Of a stretch of 35,953 bases of DNA, positions 22,905 through 33,482 are shown one piece after another; position 1 is the stretch's first letter, and every line of letters starts with the position of its first letter. Source of the DNA: Cytophagales bacterium (GTDB lineage: Bacteria; Bacteroidota; Bacteroidia; Cytophagales; Thermoflexibacteraceae); contig JAAFJS010000032.1 in NCBI GenBank assembly GCA_013298985.1, positions 1-35,953 on the forward strand, written 5' to 3'. Below the pieces are notes generated by a model, which worked only from the letters and a program-made list of their open reading frames with translations, did no database searches and was not told where the DNA came from. The position numbers and the translations under genes are program-made.

Positions 22905-25421
22905 TTAAAACCGAAACCTTTTTACACCCCAAGTAGTGAATAAAATTACAGTAATCGAACTGACAGGCATCAGAATCGCCGCAATCAGTGGCGATAAAAG
23001 TCCCTGTACCGCAAAAAATAACCCTATCAGGTTATAAACAATGGCTATTCCAAAACTTTGGCGAATTTTATTGACTGCAAAACGGCAAAAATTGATAAAC
23101 TTGGGCAGGAGAGGCAGCGCAGTCGCGTCAAGAATTGCATCAGACGCGGGCGTAAAATAAGTAGTATTTTCCGTAATAGCCACGCCCACATTGCTTTGCA
23201 GCAACGCGCCAGCATCGTTCAGTCCATCACCTATCATCATCACATGGCTATTTTGGGCTTGTAAATGCTGGATAAAAGCCAGTTTTTGATGAGGATTTTG
23301 CTGAAAAAACAAATTACTTTCTTTTGGAAAAAACAGTTTGAGATTTTCTTTTTCGCCTTCGTTATCGCCCGAAAGTAAGTATAAATCCAGTTTGGACTGA
23401 TGTAAGTTTTTGATAGTTTCTTTGATTTCCTTTCTATATTTATTTTTGAAAACAAAATAACCTTTATAAATAGCATCAACAACCACATAAACTTTTGTAT
23501 CTAATTCATTTTCATTGGTTTGAGAGCCTGAAAAATTATTTATGCCATTTTCTATCATCATTTTTTTTGAACCAAGCAAAAGGTGATGACCGTTTACTAT
23601 TCCCTCCAAGCCTTTTCCTGCGTGTTCCTTGAATGAAGAAATCGTATTTGTATTTTGAATTTCCTCAAAATAAATCTTTTCCTTTAATTTGTTTTTTAAA
23701 AAACGTACAATTTTCGCCGAAAGTGGGTGCATAGAATTACTGCAAAGTGCTGAAATAGAGGTAATTAATTCCTCGCTTAACGCTTGGGCTGGTGCTAAAC
23801 CTTCGTAAGTTTTAAAAGCTATCTCACTTTCTTGATTTTCTGTGATAGTGCCTGTTTTGTCAAATACAAGTGTATCATTTTCAGCGATTTGCTCTACGGT
23901 ATGCACATTTTTTAGGTAAAACTTATACTTGCCCAATATCCGCAAGGCAGTTCCCAAGGCAAACTGACTCCCCAAAGAAAGCGCGCAAGGGCAAGCTATC
24001 ACCAAGACGGCTGTAAAAACATGGATAGCAATAGATACCTTTTTCTCAAAAAATAGCCAGTAAGATGCTGAAAAACAAGCAATTAAAATCAAGACTATGG
24101 TAAAATATTTATTCAAAATTGCTTGAATAATACTATTTTCTTCTTTGCTTTTATCAAAACTCACATTGTTCCAAAGTTGCGTCAAATAGCTCTGAGAGGC
24201 TTTTTTTAGCACTAATAGCTCTATTTGTTCTCCTTTCTGTCGCGCCCCTGCGTAGATGGTTTCGCCTACTGCCTTGGGTATGAGGTTTGCCTCGCCCGTA
24301 ATGAAGCTGTAATCAATCTGTGCATTGCCTCTAAGTAGCTGTGTATCAGCAGGAATAATCTCCTCATTGCGAATAATAATTTTGTTACCTACCTCCAAAT
24401 CAGTTATTTGCACTGGTTTCTCCTCATTATTTTCTGTTTTTACCATCACAGCCACAGGAAAATAAGATTTAAAATCGCGGTCGTAGCGCAAGGTTTGGTA
24501 GGTGTGTTGCTGAAACCACCTGCCAACGAGCAAGAAAAAAATCAGCCCAGACATAGAATCTATATAGCCCGCCCCTGTTTCTGTAAAAATCTCAAAAATA
24601 CTGCGAATCCACAAAACCAACATTCCCAGTGCCAATGGAAAATCTACTTGCAAGATGCCTTTTCGCAGGTTTTGGTAGGAAATAGCGATATAATTCTGCC
24701 CACTAAAAAACAGCACAGGCAAAGAAAGTATCAAGTTCAGCGCATTGAAAAGTGGCTTGAAATGATGCTCAGAGAAGCTATCAAATCCAAAATATTCGGG
24801 AAAACTCAGCATCATCACATTGCCAAAAACGAAACCAGCTACAGCGATTTGGGCAATCAGTCGGCGGTTAGCTTGGCGTATTTTCGTATCTTTTTGGGCA
24901 TTATTTTGCTCCTGCACGTCATTTAGCGTAATCAGAGGCTCATAGCCAATGTTCGATAATAAGGCTACAACTTCACTCAATTTTATTTTTTGTGTATCAA
25001 AACTGACAGCTAATTGTTTTTTTAGGAAATTGATTTGAGAAAAAAATATATTTTCATTGAGTTTATACAAGTTTTCCAAGAGCCAAATACAAGAGCTACA
25101 ATGGATTGTGGGAATAAAAAAAGTCAGGTTAGCAGTTTTTTCATCTGTAAAATCAAACAGTTTGGACTGGACTTCGGGTAAATCTAAGTAAGTAAATTTC
25201 TCTATTTTGGCATTTATTTGCTGGCGAATACCCGCTTTGTCGTTCAAATCATAATATTGGCAAAGTTCGTTTTCTTTGAGTAGCTCATAAACAGTCAAGC
25301 AACCATGACAGCAAAAATGTTTTTCATCTTGCTCAAAATGAGTAGTTTGGCAAGATTCCCCGCAGTGGAAACAGGTGGGTTTGGGTGTTTTTTTCGTATT
25401 TTTGCTTAATTGAACTTGCAT
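22905..25421 (-). CDS. ccoI: cbb3 oxidase-associated copper-translocating P-type ATPase
   Basis: An 838-residue heavy-metal P1B ATPase that delivers copper for cbb3 oxidase assembly. The N-terminus has a cysteine cluster (C17, C20, C37, C38, C41) typical of Bacteroidota FixI/CcoI, then an HMA-like domain with C108-S-S-C111. Eight membrane helices include the metal-selectivity motif C477-P-C479. Other motifs are TGE (375-377), the phosphorylated D521 in DKTGT, HP at 565-566 and GDGLND at 731-736, so it should be active. It is the last gene of the cco region, 24 bases after the stop of a AAA-ATPase/nuclease-like gene and well away from ccoS and ccoNO. No obvious promoter of its own is seen. Confidence 0.94.
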   Translation of the reverse strand: MQVQLSKNTKKTPKPTCFHCGESCQTTHFEQDEKHFCCHGCLTVYELLKENELCQYYDLNDKAGIRQQINAKIEKFTYLDLPEVQSKLFDFTDEKTANLTFFIPTIHCSSCIWLLENLYKLNENIFFSQINFLKKQLAVSFDTQKIKLSEVVALLSNIGYEPLITLNDVQEQNNAQKDTKIRQANRRLIAQIAVAGFVFGNVMMLSFPEYFGFDSFSEHHFKPLFNALNLILSLPVLFFSGQNYIAISYQNLRKGILQVDFPLALGMLVLWIRSIFEIFTETGAGYIDSMSGLIFFLLVGRWFQQHTYQTLRYDRDFKSYFPVAVMVKTENNEEKPVQITDLEVGNKIIIRNEEIIPADTQLLRGNAQIDYSFITGEANLIPKAVGETIYAGARQKGEQIELLVLKKASQSYLTQLWNNVSFDKSKEENSIIQAILNKYFTIVLILIACFSASYWLFFEKKVSIAIHVFTAVLVIACPCALSLGSQFALGTALRILGKYKFYLKNVHTVEQIAENDTLVFDKTGTITENQESEIAFKTYEGLAPAQALSEELITSISALCSNSMHPLSAKIVRFLKNKLKEKIYFEEIQNTNTISSFKEHAGKGLEGIVNGHHLLLGSKKMMIENGINNFSGSQTNENELDTKVYVVVDAIYKGYFVFKNKYRKEIKETIKNLHQSKLDLYLLSGDNEGEKENLKLFFPKESNLFFQQNPHQKLAFIQHLQAQNSHVMMIGDGLNDAGALLQSNVGVAITENTTYFTPASDAILDATALPLLPKFINFCRFAVNKIRQSFGIAIVYNLIGLFFAVQGLLSPLIAAILMPVSSITVILFTTWGVKRFRF

Positions 25422-25445: not shown

Positions 25446-26978
25446 TTAAATCAGTTCTATCAAAAAATCTTCCATTTCCCTTTGCTCACTCACCAAGTTT
25501 ACACCTATCAAGTAGATTTGCTTGCCCTGACCCAAGTATGGCGCATGATAGTTTCTTTCCTTAATTTGTGCGATTGCTTTTTCTCTTGTTTGGTCTAATT
25601 TGAACTCAAACAAAAATATTTTATTTTCTATAAAAACAATGCAATCGAGCTTCCCACGCCCGCTATTTATCTCTATTTGAGTGAAATAACCCAACAAACG
25701 CAAGGCAAGAAAGCAAATGGCATGATAAAATTTTTCTCTGTTTTCTATGAAATAATCTTGAGGAATTGCCGCAAATAAGGCATTAAAAATGATTTTTACC
25801 TCGTTGAAATTGTTGGTTTTCAGGGCATTAAACAAATTGAAAACCAAAGGCTGCATACGAGTAGGCTGTAAATCGGCGTATTCTGCCAATAAAAACTGAT
25901 TAAAAGCATCAGCGACTTCTGTATTGGGAAAATCCAAACGATACATTTCAAAACCAACGTCCTCTTTGATGGTCAAATAGCCTGTTTGGAATAGCACAGA
26001 CACATAATCCAAGTTTCCCAAATCACTTGTATCAAAAGAAGTATGCCCTACGTTGATATTTTTGAGGTCATATTGGAAACCCTTTTTTAATAATTTGGTC
26101 AAAAATGTAGGTGTTCCTGTCGAAAACCAGTAGTTATCAAACTTTTTATGCTGAAAAAAAGACAAAATAGAATAGGGATTATAAACAAAATTTTGTGCGT
26201 CCCAGCTATAACCGTTATAGCGTTTTCTGATTTCTTCTAACAGTTGTTCTTTACTTTTGTTGAAAAGTGTACTCATTTGCGTGATTCTTTCAGCAAAATA
26301 AAACTCCAATTCTTCCTGAGTATAGCCCATAATTGTTGTGAAAGCAGGCACAAGCGTAATATCTGAAATATTATTGAGGTCAGAGAAAATACCTACTTTG
26401 GAAAACTTAGAAACCCCTGTGAGGAAAACAAATTTGAGGTGTGTGTCCAAAGGCTTGATAGCTGCATAAAGGTTTTTCAAAATATCTCTATTTTCGTTGG
26501 CTTTGCTTGGCTCTTCCAGATAGTCAATGATTGGCTTGTCATACTCGTCTATCAGTAGCACCACTTTGTTTTGACCAGCAGACATTTTCAAAATTAACTC
26601 CCTCAATTTCAGCCCAATTCCCATGCCTTCCAGCACAAGCCCATAGCTTTGTGCTACTTCGTCAAGCATCTTATGAATGGCATTTTCTGTACCAATTTCC
26701 TTGTGTCCTGCCGCCCCAAAATCCAATTTGATGACAGGGTACGCCTGAAAATTCCATTTATTTTCTATCCAAAGCCCCTTAAAATAATATTTGTTTCCTA
26801 AAAATAATTCTTTTAATGTATTGACTAACAACGATTTACCAAAACGACGAGGGCGAGAAAGAAAATAATATGCTCCTTCTGTTATTAATTTATGAATGAA
26901 TATGGTTTTATCTATGTAAAGTAAATTTTCTTCTCTTAACTTGCTAAATTCCTGTCTGCCAAGCGGTAAGTTTTGCAT
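25446..26978 (-). CDS. AAA-ATPase-like / PD-(D/E)XK nuclease-fold protein
   Basis: A 510-residue protein of the AAA-ATPase-like (PF09820-type) family with a C-terminal PD-(D/E)XK domain (PF08011-type). The N-terminus PLGRQEFSKLREENLLYIDKT is a hallmark. Walker A is SRPRRFGKS (G47-K48-S49), Walker B is VVLLIDEYDKP (D144, E145), and the C-terminal nuclease-like residues are D445 and E458-F-K460. The family is often present in many copies in Bacteroidota and is of unknown function; defence or selfish-element roles have been suggested but not shown. It interrupts the cco cluster between the SafE-like gene and ccoI and has its own promoter box. Confidence 0.9.
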   Translation of the reverse strand: MQNLPLGRQEFSKLREENLLYIDKTIFIHKLITEGAYYFLSRPRRFGKSLLVNTLKELFLGNKYYFKGLWIENKWNFQAYPVIKLDFGAAGHKEIGTENAIHKMLDEVAQSYGLVLEGMGIGLKLRELILKMSAGQNKVVLLIDEYDKPIIDYLEEPSKANENRDILKNLYAAIKPLDTHLKFVFLTGVSKFSKVGIFSDLNNISDITLVPAFTTIMGYTQEELEFYFAERITQMSTLFNKSKEQLLEEIRKRYNGYSWDAQNFVYNPYSILSFFQHKKFDNYWFSTGTPTFLTKLLKKGFQYDLKNINVGHTSFDTSDLGNLDYVSVLFQTGYLTIKEDVGFEMYRLDFPNTEVADAFNQFLLAEYADLQPTRMQPLVFNLFNALKTNNFNEVKIIFNALFAAIPQDYFIENREKFYHAICFLALRLLGYFTQIEINSGRGKLDCIVFIENKIFLFEFKLDQTREKAIAQIKERNYHAPYLGQGKQIYLIGVNLVSEQREMEDFLIELI

Positions 26979-27051: not shown

Positions 27052-27711
27052 TCAGCCATGACACGAGGTAATTTCCTGATAAGGCTCTATGTATGGGCTT
27101 AGGTAAGGAATATTGAGGTTTAAACCTCTAATAATCAATAAAATACCTATAAAAACTACAAAAACAGGCACTGATTTACTCAAGCGGGAACGCAAGGAAA
27201 TGGGTATTGCTTTTTGCGAAATACTGAGTGCGAAAAGCATGGGCATCGTGCCTAAACCAAATAAAAATAGGTAGCTTGCCCCATAAAAAGCATCTGCGGT
27301 TGCCATTGCGACAAAAACTGCTGAATAGACCAAGCCACAAGGCAATAATCCATTCAACATTCCCAATACGAAAGTTGCTAAAAATGAATGTTGGAGTTGG
27401 AATGGTTTTAAAAATGTTTTTATTTTTTGATACAACTGATAAAACAGTGGAAATTTTTGAGGAGGCAAAAGTACAAAAATAATCATGCACACGCCTAAGC
27501 AAATAGACAAATATTGCTGAAAACCAGCAATATACAAACCTCTGCCAACTAATCCTAAAAGAAAACCTATCCATGCGTACATCAAAGAACGCCCTAAGTG
27601 ATACACCAGTGCGTTTTGCCAATGCCTTGCTTGTAGTGCCAATACAATGCCGCCGCACATTCCTACGCAGTGAAAACTTCCCAAAAGACCTGTCAAAAAA
27701 GCGATTAACAT
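27052..27711 (-). CDS. SafE/UreH-like membrane protein of the cco cluster
   Basis: A 219-residue polytopic membrane protein of the TauE/SafE-UreH_2 group that commonly sits beside ccoG in Bacteroidota and other cbb3 loci. The N-terminal motif GSFHCVGMCGG at 11-21 supplies H14, C15, M18 and C19, suited to copper binding. A second motif, MLNGLLPCGLVY at 118-129, contains C125. About six helices are predicted. The context suggests a role in metal or cytochrome maturation for the oxidase rather than sulfite export; this is inference. It starts 15 bases after the ccoG stop. Confidence 0.82.
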   Translation of the reverse strand: MLIAFLTGLLGSFHCVGMCGGIVLALQARHWQNALVYHLGRSLMYAWIGFLLGLVGRGLYIAGFQQYLSICLGVCMIIFVLLPPQKFPLFYQLYQKIKTFLKPFQLQHSFLATFVLGMLNGLLPCGLVYSAVFVAMATADAFYGASYLFLFGLGTMPMLFALSISQKAIPISLRSRLSKSVPVFVVFIGILLIIRGLNLNIPYLSPYIEPYQEITSCHG

Positions 27712-27726
27712 ATAAAAATAGTAATT

Positions 27727-29115
27727 TTATGGTGAAGCGAAAGAAGTTTCTGTTACAGTCATTAATTTTCCGTTGGTGTAGGCTTCTATCTGTAATTTCG
27801 TTTTGTATGTATGTAAGTTTTTCTTTGGAATTAAAATAAAAAAAGATGTTTTGAATACTTCTTGCCCTTGTACTGTGATGCTTGCGCTTTGATTTACGTT
27901 TACAAATCTGATAGAACCTATCTCATTTTTCAGTTTCAGGGTTAAGTCCAATTTTTGGGCAGTTTTATTCATTAACTCCAAATTATACAAATTGCTGATA
28001 GTCAGTGCGTCAGGCTGTTGGTAGAGTAAGCCCTGCGCTCTCAATACCACCATTTCGACTGCCTTCCTACTGGCGAGCAAATAAGTCAGCACACTCACCA
28101 AAAGCACCAAAACAGTAGTATAAGCGGCAATACGGGCGGTGAATTGGAGTGGTTTTTTTTGCGTAATTCCATCAATAGAATCATAGCGAATGAGCTTTTT
28201 AGGTCTGCCTATTTTCACCATTACCTCATCACAGGCATCAATGCAGGCGGTGCAATTAATACATTCTAACTGAGTTCCGTTGCGAATATCGATTCCTGTG
28301 GGGCATACCTGCACGCACAGACCACAAGCAATACAGTCGCCTTTGGGCGGGGTAACAACTGCCTCATTTTTGTTGATTTTTCCGCGCGGTTCGCCACGCA
28401 CAAAATCGTAGGCAACGACAATACTTCGGTTGTCCAAGAGTACACTTTGCAAGCGTCCGTACGGGCAGACGATAATACAAACCAATTCGCGGAAATGTGC
28501 AAAAACATAGTAAAAAACAGTAGTAAAAATCACCAAACTGACAAACAAAATTATGTTTTCAAAAGGGGAGTGCGTTGTCAGCTTTTGCAGTTCGTCGATG
28601 CCTACCAAATATGCCAAAAAAGTGTTGGCAATGAGGAAAGAAATTATCCAAAATAAGGCGTGTTTCAAGGTTTTTTTCCAAATTTTTTCATTTGTCCATT
28701 TTCCTTCGTTGAGTCTGCGCTGTGCATTGGCATCACCTTCTATCCAATACTCTATTCGCCTGAAAATCAGTTCCATAAACACAGTTTGCGGACAAGCCCA
28801 ACCACAAAAAACCCTGCCAAAAACAACCGTAAAAAGGACGATGAAAACAATAAAAATGAGCATTGCTAAGGCAAAAATAGGAAAGTCTTGTGGGAAAAAT
28901 AATTGCCCAAAAATGATGAATTTCCTTTCTAAAATATTGAAAAGTAGGAGAGGTTGTCCATCAACTTTGAGGAAAGGCGCAACAAACAAAAAAACAAGTA
29001 AACTATACCCAAAAATGCTTCGTGCCTTAAACAAGAAGCCATCTACACTTTTGGGATACATTCTTTTGGTGCCGCCCTGCCTGTCCAATATGCCTACGTT
29101 ATCTCTGAAATCCAT
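27727..29115 (-). CDS. ccoG: cbb3 oxidase accessory ferredoxin-like protein CcoG
   Basis: A 462-residue membrane protein (RdxA/FixG family) involved in cbb3 oxidase maturation, where the family is linked to copper reduction. Membrane helices are at about 35-50 and 80-100, followed by the CGWACPQTVFME motif (C104, C108), then more helices. A double 4Fe-4S ferredoxin segment follows: CIACGLCVQVC (261-271) and CINCTACIDAC (285-295). A C-terminal membrane helix (about 325-345) leads to an Ig-like periplasmic domain. It starts 23 bases after the ccoP stop. No ccoH follows, which is unusual for the family neighbourhood. Confidence 0.95.
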   Translation of the reverse strand: MDFRDNVGILDRQGGTKRMYPKSVDGFLFKARSIFGYSLLVFLFVAPFLKVDGQPLLLFNILERKFIIFGQLFFPQDFPIFALAMLIFIVFIVLFTVVFGRVFCGWACPQTVFMELIFRRIEYWIEGDANAQRRLNEGKWTNEKIWKKTLKHALFWIISFLIANTFLAYLVGIDELQKLTTHSPFENIILFVSLVIFTTVFYYVFAHFRELVCIIVCPYGRLQSVLLDNRSIVVAYDFVRGEPRGKINKNEAVVTPPKGDCIACGLCVQVCPTGIDIRNGTQLECINCTACIDACDEVMVKIGRPKKLIRYDSIDGITQKKPLQFTARIAAYTTVLVLLVSVLTYLLASRKAVEMVVLRAQGLLYQQPDALTISNLYNLELMNKTAQKLDLTLKLKNEIGSIRFVNVNQSASITVQGQEVFKTSFFILIPKKNLHTYKTKLQIEAYTNGKLMTVTETSFASP

Positions 29116-29138: not shown

Positions 29139-29888
29139 TTACTGCATTTGCTCTCCTTGTGGTGCTTTGCCATTGGGAGGATTTGAGCCTTTGAGTGATG
29201 TAATAAAATTAGAAATATTGCTGATTTGTGTGGGCGTTATTTGTGTACCCCACGCCACCATTCCTCTTTCGGGTACGCCGTACTTGATGGTTTTGAAGAT
29301 GGAAGCAAGTGTGCCACCATGCAGCCAATAATTATCTGTAAGGTTAGGACCTACTCCGCCTTCGCCCGCTTGTCCATGGCAGGCAGCGCAATATTGGGTG
29401 TAAGTAGCTTTACCAGAAGTAATTACGGCTTGGTCTTTACTTTCTTTGACATTGTTTTCATTGATGTCATCAACGGGCGTATTTTTGAGGCGTTCTTGGC
29501 TCGCTAACTGGGCGATATACACTTCTTTATCGTATTCTTGACTTTGCAACGGTGCGGCGTTCCACTGATGATAGACCAGCAAATAGACTAACCCAAAAGC
29601 AACTGTGCCGTAGAAAAGTGCGTTGAACCACGCAGGAACGGGATTATTGAGTTCTTTGATGCCGTCATAGTCCTCATGTAGGAGTAATTCTTGTTCTCGC
29701 GAAAGCGGCTTTAAGCCTGCGACTTTGAGCCAAAACTTATTAGCGTCAGGTGCTGGTGCTTCCTTTTCGCCTGCTATGCTTTGTACCATACTCGCCAAGG
29801 AGAGGAGCATGACCAAAAGCACAAATACTACAGAAACTAAGATTCCTATGGTGAAAAGTAAGAGTAAGTCGTTTCCATCTTTTATCAT
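29139..29888 (-). CDS. ccoP: cbb3-type cytochrome c oxidase diheme-type subunit CcoP (single haem here)
   Basis: The 249-residue subunit III of the oxidase. Two N-terminal membrane helices (about 8-32 and 88-106) bracket the FixP_N signature HEDYDGIKELNNPVPAWF (71-88). The periplasmic cytochrome c domain has one haem site, C167-A-A-C-H171, and a likely axial Met in RGMVAWG (M210). CcoP of Proteobacteria has two CxxCH sites; only one is visible here and the protein is correspondingly short. The start is separated from ccoQ by 138 bases containing a repeat-flanked hairpin segment. Confidence 0.93.
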   Translation of the reverse strand: MIKDGNDLLLLFTIGILVSVVFVLLVMLLSLASMVQSIAGEKEAPAPDANKFWLKVAGLKPLSREQELLLHEDYDGIKELNNPVPAWFNALFYGTVAFGLVYLLVYHQWNAAPLQSQEYDKEVYIAQLASQERLKNTPVDDINENNVKESKDQAVITSGKATYTQYCAACHGQAGEGGVGPNLTDNYWLHGGTLASIFKTIKYGVPERGMVAWGTQITPTQISNISNFITSLKGSNPPNGKAPQGEQMQ

Positions 29889-30257: not shown

Positions 30258-32417
30258 TTACTCTTTCTTAACGTCTGTTCCTAACCGTTGGAGGTAGGCA
30301 ATGAGGGCGATGATTTCGCGGTCAGGCTTGACCTCAATTTTCTCTGCTTTCAAGTTGGCGGTGATGGCATCAGCTTGCTCTTTTAACTCGTTCCTGGCAT
30401 TATTGATGCGCGTATCGGAGTAAGGCACGCCCAGCGATTTCATTACTTTCATTTTTGCTTGTGTATTGGAAATGTCTAATTCGTTTTCCAATAGCCAAGC
30501 ATAATTTGGCATGATAGAGCCTGGCGACATGGAGGTCGACTCGCGCAGGTGGAAATAGTGCCAAGCGTGCGGATATTTACCGCCTTGGCGCATCAAATCG
30601 GGACCTGTACGCTTCGAACCCCACAGAAAAGGGTGGTCGTAAATGTATTCCCCTGATTTGGAGTAAGTTCCGTAGCGTTCGGTTTCCGAACGGAAAGGGC
30701 GAATCATCTGAGAGTGGCAGTTGTTACAGCCTTCTTTGATGTATAAATCTCTCCCTTCCAGTTCCAGAGGCGTGTAAGGTTGCACAGAGGCAATCGTAGG
30801 AATATTGCTTTTGATGAGCAAGGTAGGTATAATTTGCACCAATCCGCCAATAGAAACGACGATTAAGGAAGAAATCATCAATAAAATAGGGCGGTTTTCA
30901 AAAACTTTGTGCCAATACTCGCCTTTGTGGTCTATTTTTGTATAGACAGTAGCTTCTGTTTTTTCGTTTGCCAAGAACGAGCCTTTTTGGGCGGTTTTTG
31001 CCAAATTGTAGAGCATAACTAAGAAACCCGCCAAGTAAAATGTGCCTCCTACGCTTCTGGCGGCATACAAAGGGATAACTCTTGTTACTGTTTCCAAAAA
31101 ATTAGGATAGCGCAACACACCCTCAGGCGTAAATTCCTGCCACATCAAGCCCTGCATAAAGCCCGCCCAATACATAGGAATTGCATAAAATAAAATGCCC
31201 AGTGTGCCAAGCCAAAAGTGGACGGAAGCCAAAGATTTGGAGTACAAATTGGTATTATACAGTCTGGGGACTAACCAATACGCTATCGCAAAGAGCATGA
31301 ACCCATTGAAACCCAGCGCGCCCACGTGTACGTGAGCAACGACCCAATCCGTAAAGTGGGCAATCGCATTGATGCTTTTCAAAGAAAGCAGAGGTCCCTC
31401 GAAGGTTGCCATGCCATAGGCGGTCAGCGAAACGACCATAAATTTTAACGTAACATCTTCGCTAACCTTGTCCCAAGCCCCGCGCAAGGTTAGCAGTCCG
31501 TTAATCATGCCTCCCCAAGAGGGCGCAATGAGCATTACGGAGAAAACAACGCCCAAAGACTGCACCCAATCAGGCAGAGAGCTATAAAGCAAGTGATGAG
31601 GTCCCGCCCAGATATACAGAAAAATCAGCGTCCAAAAGTGCAAAATAGAGAGTTTGTAAGAATAAATAGGGCGGTTTGCCATCTTGGGCAAAAAATAATA
31701 CATCATGCCCAAAAAAGGCGTGGTCAAGAAAAAAGCCACCGCATTATGCCCATACCACCACTGCACCAGCGCATCTTGCACGCCTGCATACACAGAATAA
31801 CTTTTTAGAAAACTTACTGGAAAAGCAAATGAGTTGAAAATATGCAAAATAGCCACTGTTACAAAGGTTGCGATGTAAAACCAAGCCGCTACGTAAATAT
31901 GTTTTTCGCGTCTTTTGATGATAGTGCCAATCAAATTGATGCCAAAAACGACCCAAATCAGGGCAATCGCAATGTCGATAGGCCACTCCAGCTCTGCGTA
32001 TTCTTTGGAAGTAGTAATCCCCAAGGGCAGGGTAATTGCGGCAGACAAAATGATGAGTTGCCAGCCCCAAAAGTGAATTTTGCTTAGGTTGTCGCTATAC
32101 ATTCTGGTTCGGCAAACGCGCTGCAAAGAATAGTAAATTCCTGCAAAAATTCCGTTTCCCACAAAGGCAAAAATGATGGCGTTGGTGTGTAGCGGTCGAA
32201 TCCTGCCAAAAGTAGTGTAGGGCAAATCAAAATTTAAGACGGGGAAAACTAATTGCAAAGCGACCGTTAAGCCCACCAGCATACCTACCAAGCCAAAAAT
32301 CAAGGTAGCCAATCCAAAATTGCGAACACTGGTATTGTCATACTCAAATTGTTCGACTCGCTTTTCAATCATTTCTTTTGCTGCCATCGGCGCAGTCAAG
32401 ACAGTGGTTTGTTCCAT
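30258..32417 (-). CDS. ccoNO: fused cbb3-type cytochrome c oxidase subunits I and II (CcoNO)
   Basis: A 719-residue fusion of the catalytic haem-copper subunit and the monohaem cytochrome c subunit, as is usual in Bacteroidota. In the CcoN part (about 30-475), H77 (RPLHTNA) and H364 are low-spin haem ligands, H362 (AHVHVG) is expected at haem b3, and H224 (WWYGHNAV) with H274-H275 (AGPHHLLY) binds CuB. Y254 (YSYKLS) is the likely active-site tyrosine. In the CcoO part (about 505-719), a membrane helix is followed by C564-N-N-C-H568 and M636 (GSIMPNY). All ligands are intact, so the enzyme should reduce O2 with high affinity at the cytoplasmic membrane. Confidence 0.97.
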   Translation of the reverse strand: MEQTTVLTAPMAAKEMIEKRVEQFEYDNTSVRNFGLATLIFGLVGMLVGLTVALQLVFPVLNFDLPYTTFGRIRPLHTNAIIFAFVGNGIFAGIYYSLQRVCRTRMYSDNLSKIHFWGWQLIILSAAITLPLGITTSKEYAELEWPIDIAIALIWVVFGINLIGTIIKRREKHIYVAAWFYIATFVTVAILHIFNSFAFPVSFLKSYSVYAGVQDALVQWWYGHNAVAFFLTTPFLGMMYYFLPKMANRPIYSYKLSILHFWTLIFLYIWAGPHHLLYSSLPDWVQSLGVVFSVMLIAPSWGGMINGLLTLRGAWDKVSEDVTLKFMVVSLTAYGMATFEGPLLSLKSINAIAHFTDWVVAHVHVGALGFNGFMLFAIAYWLVPRLYNTNLYSKSLASVHFWLGTLGILFYAIPMYWAGFMQGLMWQEFTPEGVLRYPNFLETVTRVIPLYAARSVGGTFYLAGFLVMLYNLAKTAQKGSFLANEKTEATVYTKIDHKGEYWHKVFENRPILLMISSLIVVSIGGLVQIIPTLLIKSNIPTIASVQPYTPLELEGRDLYIKEGCNNCHSQMIRPFRSETERYGTYSKSGEYIYDHPFLWGSKRTGPDLMRQGGKYPHAWHYFHLRESTSMSPGSIMPNYAWLLENELDISNTQAKMKVMKSLGVPYSDTRINNARNELKEQADAITANLKAEKIEVKPDREIIALIAYLQRLGTDVKKE

Positions 32418-32507: not shown

Positions 32508-32654
32508 TCATTTCTTTTTATCGTCAAATAAAATTCTGACTGACGGCGTGTAGTCATCATCAAACTGCCCCTTTCGGAGATTATAGATAAATATTCCCAA
32601 AAAGAGCAACGAAATAGACAAACTGACTGAGAGCAATACATAAATTATTTCCAT
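32508..32654 (-). CDS. ccoS: cbb3 oxidase assembly protein CcoS
   Basis: A 48-residue single-helix protein starting MEIIYVLLSVSLSISLLFLG, with the family tail GQFDDDYTPSVRILFDD. FixS/CcoS is needed for cofactor insertion into the oxidase. The reading frame extends upstream to 32720, but the ATG at 32654 gives the canonical N-terminus. It is the first gene of the cco transcript, 90 bases ahead of ccoNO, and faces the divergent crp/fnr gene. Confidence 0.92.
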   Translation of the reverse strand: MEIIYVLLSVSLSISLLFLGIFIYNLRKGQFDDDYTPSVRILFDDKKK

Positions 32655-32676
32655 GATTTTTCTTTTTTTATGAGGA

Positions 32677-32683
32677 CAAAATA
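32677..32683 (-). promoter_or_regulatory. probable -7 box of the cco operon
   Basis: Minus strand TATTTTG, one base shorter than the TAnnTTTG consensus, 22 bases upstream of the ccoS ATG. If transcription starts about 6 bases downstream, the FNR-like palindrome at 32707-32720 is centred near -41, the position used by class II FNR activation. Confidence 0.35.
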
Positions 32684-32706
32684 CGGTAGGAATGAGAAAA
32701 ATAAAT

Positions 32707-32720
32707 ATGACATATATCAA
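32707..32720. promoter_or_regulatory. FNR/FixK-like box between ccoS and the crp/fnr gene
   Basis: Plus strand ATGACATATATCAA; minus strand TTGATATATGTCAT. This is TTGAT-N4-GTCAT against the FNR consensus TTGAT-N4-ATCAA, with one perfect half-site and the TGA-N6-TCA core intact. It sits between a divergent Crp/Fnr regulator gene and the oxidase operon, the classical location for oxygen control of cbb3 genes. Confidence 0.55.
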
Positions 32721-32750
32721 GTCAAATGATGATTTTTGTCATGTATTGTT

Positions 32751-32758
32751 TATTTTTG
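32751..32758 (+). promoter_or_regulatory. -7 box of the crp/fnr gene
   Basis: TATTTTTG matches TAnnTTTG, 28 bases upstream of the ATG at 32787. It lies downstream of the alternative start at 32736, which supports 32787 as the real start. Confidence 0.5.
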
Positions 32759-32786
32759 TCTAAGCAAGTTTTTCCATATATTAAAC

Positions 32787-33482
32787 ATGAAAAAGCATAC
32801 AGATTTCATTTTTTGTGAGAAGTGTAGAAACTCCAACTCGTCTTTGGTCAAGTTCTGTACTGCCCAAGAAGTAGAAGAAATAAACCAAACCAAGACCTGT
32901 ATCAGCTACAAGCGCGGCGAAACCCTATTTCATGAAGGGGGATTGCCATTAGGTATTTTTTGTGTAAATTCGGGCGCAGTCAAGATAGTAAAAGAGGCGA
33001 GTGGCGGCAAAGAAATGATAGTGCGAATCGCCCAAGCGGGTGATGTGATTGGCTATCGTTCGCTGATTATGCACCAGCGTTATGCGGCAAGTGCAGTGGC
33101 AGCCGAGGACTGCAAGGTCTGCCTGATTCCCAAAGACGAATTTATCAAACTATCGATAAATAACCGCAAATTTTATGACGAACTGATGAAAATGATTTGT
33201 GAAGACCTCAAAGACTCACAAAATAAAATGGCGGAAATTGCCTACAAACCTGTGCGCGGCAGGGTAGCTGAGGCATTGATTCTGCTGGGACAAATGGCTA
33301 AACCACAGGGAGTTATCAACCTGACTCGTGAGGATTTGGCGAGCTTCGTCGGCACTGTCAAAGAAACAGTGATTCGCGTACTTTCTGAGTTCAAAAACGA
33401 ACATTTTATCGAGATAGACAAGCGCAATATCAAAGTGATTGACCTCAGTGGGTTGGAAAAATTGAGTGGAATGTACGATTGA
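32787..33482 (+). CDS. Crp/Fnr-family transcriptional regulator, probable oxygen/redox sensor
   Basis: A 231-residue regulator. The N-terminus has C10-x2-C13 and C24 (IFCEKCRNSNSSLVKFC), then a cyclic-nucleotide-binding-like beta-roll (about 35-130) with further cysteines C38, C59, C109 and C112. The C-terminal winged helix (about 155-220) has the HTH segment NLTREDLASFVGTVKETVIRVLSE. E. coli FNR uses four cysteines for an O2-sensitive 4Fe-4S cluster; the spacing here differs, so cluster binding is plausible but unproven. Divergent from the cco operon, with an FNR-like box in the shared region, it is the likely regulator of that operon. Start chosen at 32787, after the promoter box. Confidence 0.9.
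   Translation: MKKHTDFIFCEKCRNSNSSLVKFCTAQEVEEINQTKTCISYKRGETLFHEGGLPLGIFCVNSGAVKIVKEASGGKEMIVRIAQAGDVIGYRSLIMHQRYAASAVAAEDCKVCLIPKDEFIKLSINNRKFYDELMKMICEDLKDSQNKMAEIAYKPVRGRVAEALILLGQMAKPQGVINLTREDLASFVGTVKETVIRVLSEFKNEHFIEIDKRNIKVIDLSGLEKLSGMYD

Follow-up and report, generated by a model that had tools for sequence, protein, structure and literature searches.

The window analysed here is a stretch of 35,953 nucleotides from a Cytophagales bacterium of the family Thermoflexibacteraceae (assembly GCA_013298985.1, contig JAAFJS010000032.1). Its minus strand carries ccoS (32508..32654), which matches PF03597 and TIGR00847 above cut-off. This is followed, on the same strand, by a ccoNO fusion encoding cbb3 oxidase subunits I and II (30258..32417; PRK14485, 1276 bits, cut-off 1080), ccoP (29139..29888; PF14715 and PF13442), and ccoG (27727..29115; TIGR02745 above cut-off). 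Together, the domain and family-model matches identify a cbb3 oxidase operon. Directly after ccoG (the two genes span 27052-29115) is a minus strand gene for a DsbD_2-domain membrane protein (27052..27711; PF13386). A CcoI-like metal P-type ATPase is encoded further along the same strand (22905..25421; PF12156 and PF00122). The 510-aa ORF between them, at 25446-26978, bears a possible resemblance to AAA-ATPase/nuclease-type proteins. A tblastn search of the window, using two ccoH-like ORFs taken from relatives, did not detect ccoH (best hit E 0.073). On the plus strand, a divergent gene encodes a Crp/Fnr-family regulator of 231 aa (32787..33482). Between the ccoS ATG (32654, minus) and the regulator ATG (32787, plus) is a gap of 132 bp.

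Two dyads lie in this gap. Dyad 1 (TTGATATATGTCAT, minus strand, 32707..32720) had been picked out in the initial annotation, as a lone FNR-like box near -41 of the cco promoter. We confirm the box as written, the ccoS start, and the position of the divergent regulator gene. A second dyad had been missed (ATGATTTTTGTCAT, 32729..32742) and the element is a pair. Both members have the form TGA-N6-TCA, dyad 2 being the more symmetrical, and their centres are 22 bp, or two helix turns, apart. Downstream of dyad 1 on the minus strand is TATTTTG (32683-32677), the candidate -7 element of the cco promoter. There are 23 bases between these elements, and 33.5 bp between their centres. The terminal G, at 32677, is at offset 42 from dyad 1 and offset 64 from dyad 2. 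Note that, in PMC9723704, the TAnnTTTG box of one flavobacterium is assigned to -12 to -5. If the G is at -5, cco transcription is predicted to start at 32672 (minus strand), 18 bases 5' of the ccoS ATG. For the cco promoter, dyad 1 would then be the proximal member, with a predicted centre at -41.5, in line with the position first proposed. Dyad 2 would be the distal dyad, at a predicted -63.5. Were the cco -7 box read as the TAnnTTGY variant, also given in PMC9723704, the proximal centre would move to -42.5. In the other direction, TATTTTTG (32751..32758, plus strand) fits TAnnTTTG and is the putative -7 element of the regulator promoter. The same convention predicts a regulator transcription start at 32763 (plus strand), with dyad 2 at -27.5.

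The FNR-type assignment of dyad 1 was made by comparison with the textbook box TTGAT-N4-ATCAA, as given in PMC7888657. That resemblance is at chance level. Dyad 1 has 2 mismatches and, with up to 2 mismatches permitted, the window contains 40 matches, compared to 38.2 (sd 7.1) expected from shuffles. A genome-wide motif search gave no support either. The related pattern ATGAYNNNNRTCAT occurs at 20 places, versus 16 for the reversed control, which is no enrichment. Inspection of ORFs indicates that 2 of the 20 places are clearly intergenic. One is dyad 2. The other, ATGATAAAAATCAT (G000:C358:5553-5566, L096), lies before a universal-stress-protein-like gene and has a half-site 22 bp on. This site has TTTG at neither 42 nor 64, and we do not claim it. 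The TTGATATATGTCAT 14-mer itself has a single occurrence in the 6.06 Mb assembly. When the dyad pair and a correctly placed TTTG are combined, the window promoter is the sole match without mismatches in the genome; the composite was built from the window and related promoters, so the match is by construction and its uniqueness alone is informative. With up to 2 mismatches, the composite (dyad, half-site at +30, and TTTG at 64) has 36 matches, versus 31 for the control, and no wider regulon is readable.

What distinguishes the dyad is its conservation. Within the order, ccoN is found in 196 of 291 genomes, and we took upstream DNA from 80 of these, spread over 12 families. In 71 of the 80, the pattern TGAY-N4-RTCA occurs within the 680 bp directly upstream of ccoN. 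This is the best of 1408 inverted-repeat variants, the next being present in 30 (mean 3.8, sd 4.5). Adding 400 bp before ccoI, where ccoI leads, raises the count to 74/80 (next best variant 32). The other six loci are L099, L113, L114, L115, L123, and L174. For the first four, a dyad is located just outside the scanned intervals; L123 and L174 have none anywhere in the fetched stretch. Outside the order, 77 genomes had ccoN. From other orders of the class we fetched 40 loci, as a held-out set, after the motif and offsets had been fixed. Of these, 39 have the dyad upstream of cco, again the best of 1408 variants (next best 23). Some counted dyads fall inside ccoS (for example at L120, L122, and L124), and the count was repeated with ORFs of at least 100 aa masked. 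The dyad was then detected in 68/80 loci of the order (next best 26) and 34/40 of other orders (next best 15). A dyad conserved in this way at orthologous promoters has the behaviour of a Crp/Fnr-type operator. Hence, the case for an operator comes from relatives, and not from the match to consensus. The concern voiced in the initial annotation, that the box might not be conserved in relatives, can be set aside. Note that the sampled genomes are related, and counts of dyads, pairs, and offsets are not independent.

The spacing of the pair is also conserved. Pairs of dyads separated by 22 bp number 30 in the order and 31 in other orders, where the next commonest spacings reach 2; for 23 bp, the numbers are 9 and 2. 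A full pair at 22 or 23 bp is present at 27/80 loci of the order and 27/40 held-out loci, with other spacings at no more than 2 loci. At most loci of the order, the second dyad is only partial. If a strict dyad and the outer half-site of its partner are required, at 22 bp, there are 42/80 and 25/40 loci respectively (best other spacing 7 and 4). The dyads are similarly fixed with respect to the -7 box. Measured from a strict dyad, the G of TTTG stands at offset 42 or at 64/65 in 46/80 loci (10/12 families) and 30/40 loci (19/23 families). These three offsets had been selected from the loci of the order, and the class set served to test them. As a control, shifted TTTG offsets gave means of 1.2 (order) and 0.5 (held-out), with maxima of 5 and 2. 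TTTG is missing from the expected offsets at 34/80 and 10/40 loci. Since 64 minus 42 is 22, the two offsets belong to a single design, 42 to its proximal dyad and 64 to its distal dyad. The register between the proximal dyad and the cco -7 box is fixed at 36.5 bp. The DNA sequence, then, shows that the dyads are paired, that the pair is conserved through the order and the class, and that it stands in fixed register with the cco -7 box.

We consider it probable that both divergent promoters are served by one operator in the intergenic region, through which the 32787 regulator would switch on cco when oxygen is low and repress its own gene. In this scheme, a fall in oxygen would allow the N-terminal cysteines of the protein, together with C112, to carry an oxygen-labile Fe-S cluster. 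The loaded regulator would dimerise and occupy both dyads. On dyad 1, at -41.5, the dimer would be a class II activator of ccoS-ccoNO-ccoP-ccoG. A dimer on dyad 2, at -63.5, may assist, by cooperative binding or a further contact with RNA polymerase. Counted from the predicted regulator start, dyad 2 is centred near -27.5, where it would cover the upstream part of that promoter, and the same occupancy would cause repression and negative feedback. Position and conservation argue for the activation step. We infer oxygen sensing from the alignment of cysteines and the nature of the target. Self-repression, to which geometry in three loci points, is the weakest step. According to PMC9723704, cbb3 oxidase is strongly up-regulated under oxygen limitation in a flavobacterium.

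The regulator belongs to the Crp/Fnr superfamily, with PF00027 (cNMP) followed by PF13545 (Crp HTH), both above cut-off. Against the NCBIfam Fnr model PRK11161 it scores 74.2 bits, for a cut-off of 228. Its cysteines are arranged C10-x2-C13-x10-C24, with C112 further on. When the protein is aligned by profile with FNR chains of solved structure, three of these residues (C10, C13, and C112) fall in register with their FNR counterparts. Aliivibrio fischeri FNR (5cvr and related chains) is a close comparison: the domain order is the same, and those three residues match cluster cysteines of that protein. The differences are the third N-terminal cysteine, after x5 in FNR and x10 here, such that 3/4 are in register, and the recognition helix, ETISR in FNR and ExxIR here. 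Given a score far below the Fnr-model cut-off, and the differing third cysteine, these comparisons describe a protein that is FNR-like, not Fnr. Across 21 sequences there is no variation at C10, C59, or C112, nor at E193, I196, and R197 of the recognition helix; the ExxIR motif is likewise invariant, and C13 is nearly so. A search of named genomes returned 44 loci, mostly distant Crp/Fnr proteins, the best being a Bacteroidota record with 35% identity.

These features leave some room for a regulator that reads the dyads without Fe-S oxygen sensing, responding through a thiol or metal switch, or to another signal such as NO, redox state, or carbon. We regard this as possible, if rather doubtful. 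The cysteine spacing is unlike that of FNR. The third cysteine, C24, does not occur throughout: 3 of the 21 sequences (L080, L092, and L089) lack it or have it at a shifted position. The invariant C59 is no FNR ligand in the profile alignment. Carbon sensing has been predicted for related Crp/Fnr proteins of Flavobacteriales and Saprospiraceae, in PMC8510549, but on the basis of loose similarity to MalR. Furthermore, C10, C13, and C112 are in FNR register and the target is a low-oxygen oxidase, both of which favour the Fe-S cluster.

We now consider which protein reads the dyads. The initial annotation proposed that the regulator at 32787 controls cco, and perhaps its own gene. The first part gains support from genomic context. 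Among the 13 genomes of the window's family, 11 have the regulator and the same 11 have ccoN; both are missing from G001 and G002. In the window's own genome it is the sole gene of its kind, with no further relative at E ≤ 1e-15. The second part is plausible for some genomes. The divergent ccoS/regulator arrangement occurs in three (the window's own, G011, and G005). All three have a strict distal dyad and the cco-side TTTG at offset 64. The proximal dyad is strict in the window and G011, with the dyads 22 bp apart; G005 retains only the cco-side half (ATCA). On the regulator side, TAnnTTTG occupies offsets 21-28 relative to dyad 2 in the window and in G011 (which has TAAATTTG), and lies one base further along in G005 (which has TATTTTTG). 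No TGA-N6-TCA was found in roughly 600 bp upstream of the regulator at the other 9 of 12 regulator loci in the family. Hence, self-control is plausible in the divergent arrangement only. Two further arrangements were seen. In G003, the cysteine-type regulator is present in two tandem copies (L182:1506-2957), on a contig other than that of the cco operon. At L085 (G014), two dyads 22 bp apart lie upstream of an ArsR-like gene, which is followed by a cysteine-type regulator; this genome has no ccoN match at E ≤ 1e-100.

A second type of regulator is found at cco clusters elsewhere. In several genomes of family f10 (L178, L179, L183, and L188), ccoG is followed in the cluster by a gene of DsbD_2 type and then by a radical SAM gene resembling hemN. 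The cluster ends with a PAS histidine kinase beside a receiver-cNMP-Crp fusion (L178:3495-5846, L179:2759-5059, L183:3314-5614, and L188:2938-5289). Kinase and fusion are possibly a one-chain analogue of FixJ plus FixK. The fusion is without the cysteines, and its recognition helix, VGTATETVIR, is as in the cysteine type. Using cut-offs of E ≤ 1e-68 for the cysteine type (from the ranked list) and E ≤ 1e-60 for the receiver type, the 196 cco genomes of the order comprise 67 with the cysteine type only, 97 with the fusion only, 27 with both, and 5 with neither. The two sampled from the last group nonetheless score a dyad. One or other type is present in 191/196 cco genomes, compared to 27/95 without ccoN (Fisher p 1e-37, ignoring relatedness). 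Dyads beside a correctly placed TTTG are similar in appearance between cysteine-only and fusion-only genomes. From the counts of each regulator type, we infer that two types of sensor serve one operator.

The dyads could also be genuine Crp/Fnr operators of cco read by another paralogue, with the 32787 neighbour regulating something else. The abundance of genomes with the fusion only, carrying the same recognition helix, fits this, as do the 9/12 family regulator loci that are not beside a dyad. It is nevertheless unlikely to hold for the window. The fusion, found in 144/291 genomes of the order, is absent from 13/13 of the window's family (E ≤ 1e-60). In addition, the window's genome offers no second relative of the regulator at E ≤ 1e-15, and regulator and ccoN come and go together in the family. 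In a further alternative, dyad 1 alone would matter for cco and dyad 2 would serve the regulator gene only. Dyad 2 does overlap the regulator promoter region, and one strict dyad is kept at many loci. However, the pair recurs at cco and ccoI promoters with the regulator elsewhere (for example at L152, L154, and L157), and in other orders. Moreover, TTTG offset 64, from the distal dyad, is as frequent as offset 42. We therefore think such a division of labour quite improbable. Finally, TGAY-N4-RTCA might be bound by a transcription factor unrelated to Crp/Fnr, or form part of a promoter or of an RNA element. We can scarcely credit this, given that Crp/Fnr dimers have just this spacing and half-site, that pairs two helix turns apart in a class II position fit protein dimers, and that cco is strongly tied to ExxIR Crp/Fnr genes.

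The shared operator that we favour has known counterparts. According to PMC7888657, it is established that Fnr/FixK proteins of proteobacteria control cbb3 oxidase from a box near -41. The anaerobox recognised by FNR, FnrN, and FixK at fixNOQP shares with our dyads the TGA-N6-TCA core and the target enzyme and, on the predictions made above, the Crp/Fnr dimer and an activator site near -41. In contrast to the proteobacterial TTGAT-N4-ATCAA, the element here is [AC]TGAY-N4-RTCA[TG], is paired 22 bp apart, and is tied to a TAnnTTTG-type -7 box. For rhizobia, PMC7888657 describes one box on which two inputs converge, from the Fe-S protein FnrN and from the two-component route FixL-FixJ/FxkR-FixK; here, the two-component input is fused in one receiver-Crp/Fnr protein. 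The paper also describes two anaeroboxes at the R. leguminosarum fnrN promoter, for activation and self-repression, as proposed here. Those boxes are at -34 and -2 of one promoter, 32 bp apart, whereas ours are separated by 22 bp and belong to two divergent promoters. Our literature search, which had little reach into subscription journals, yielded no account of cbb3 regulation by Fnr in Bacteroidota. Fnr and Crp have 0 occurrences in the main text of PMC9723704. The literature searched did not yield the 22-bp pair, its tie to a TAnnTTTG-type promoter, its class-wide spread, or the fused receiver-Crp/Fnr reader; these appear to be new.

On balance, we lean towards a class-wide arrangement, in which one operator design (TGAY-N4-RTCA, often paired at 22 bp, and fixed to the -7 box) would govern cbb3 oxidase, and the sensor would be exchangeable. 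The reader may be a cysteine-bearing FNR-like protein or a single-chain receiver-Crp/Fnr fusion. Operator and recognition helix would stay fixed, with the input switching between direct oxygen sensing and phosphorylation. If right, this identifies an operator and its geometry, a core target (the high-affinity oxidase), and two proteins that may read the operator, all of which lend themselves directly to tests in tractable strains. It would also provide a natural case of a fixed operator with two kinds of sensor.
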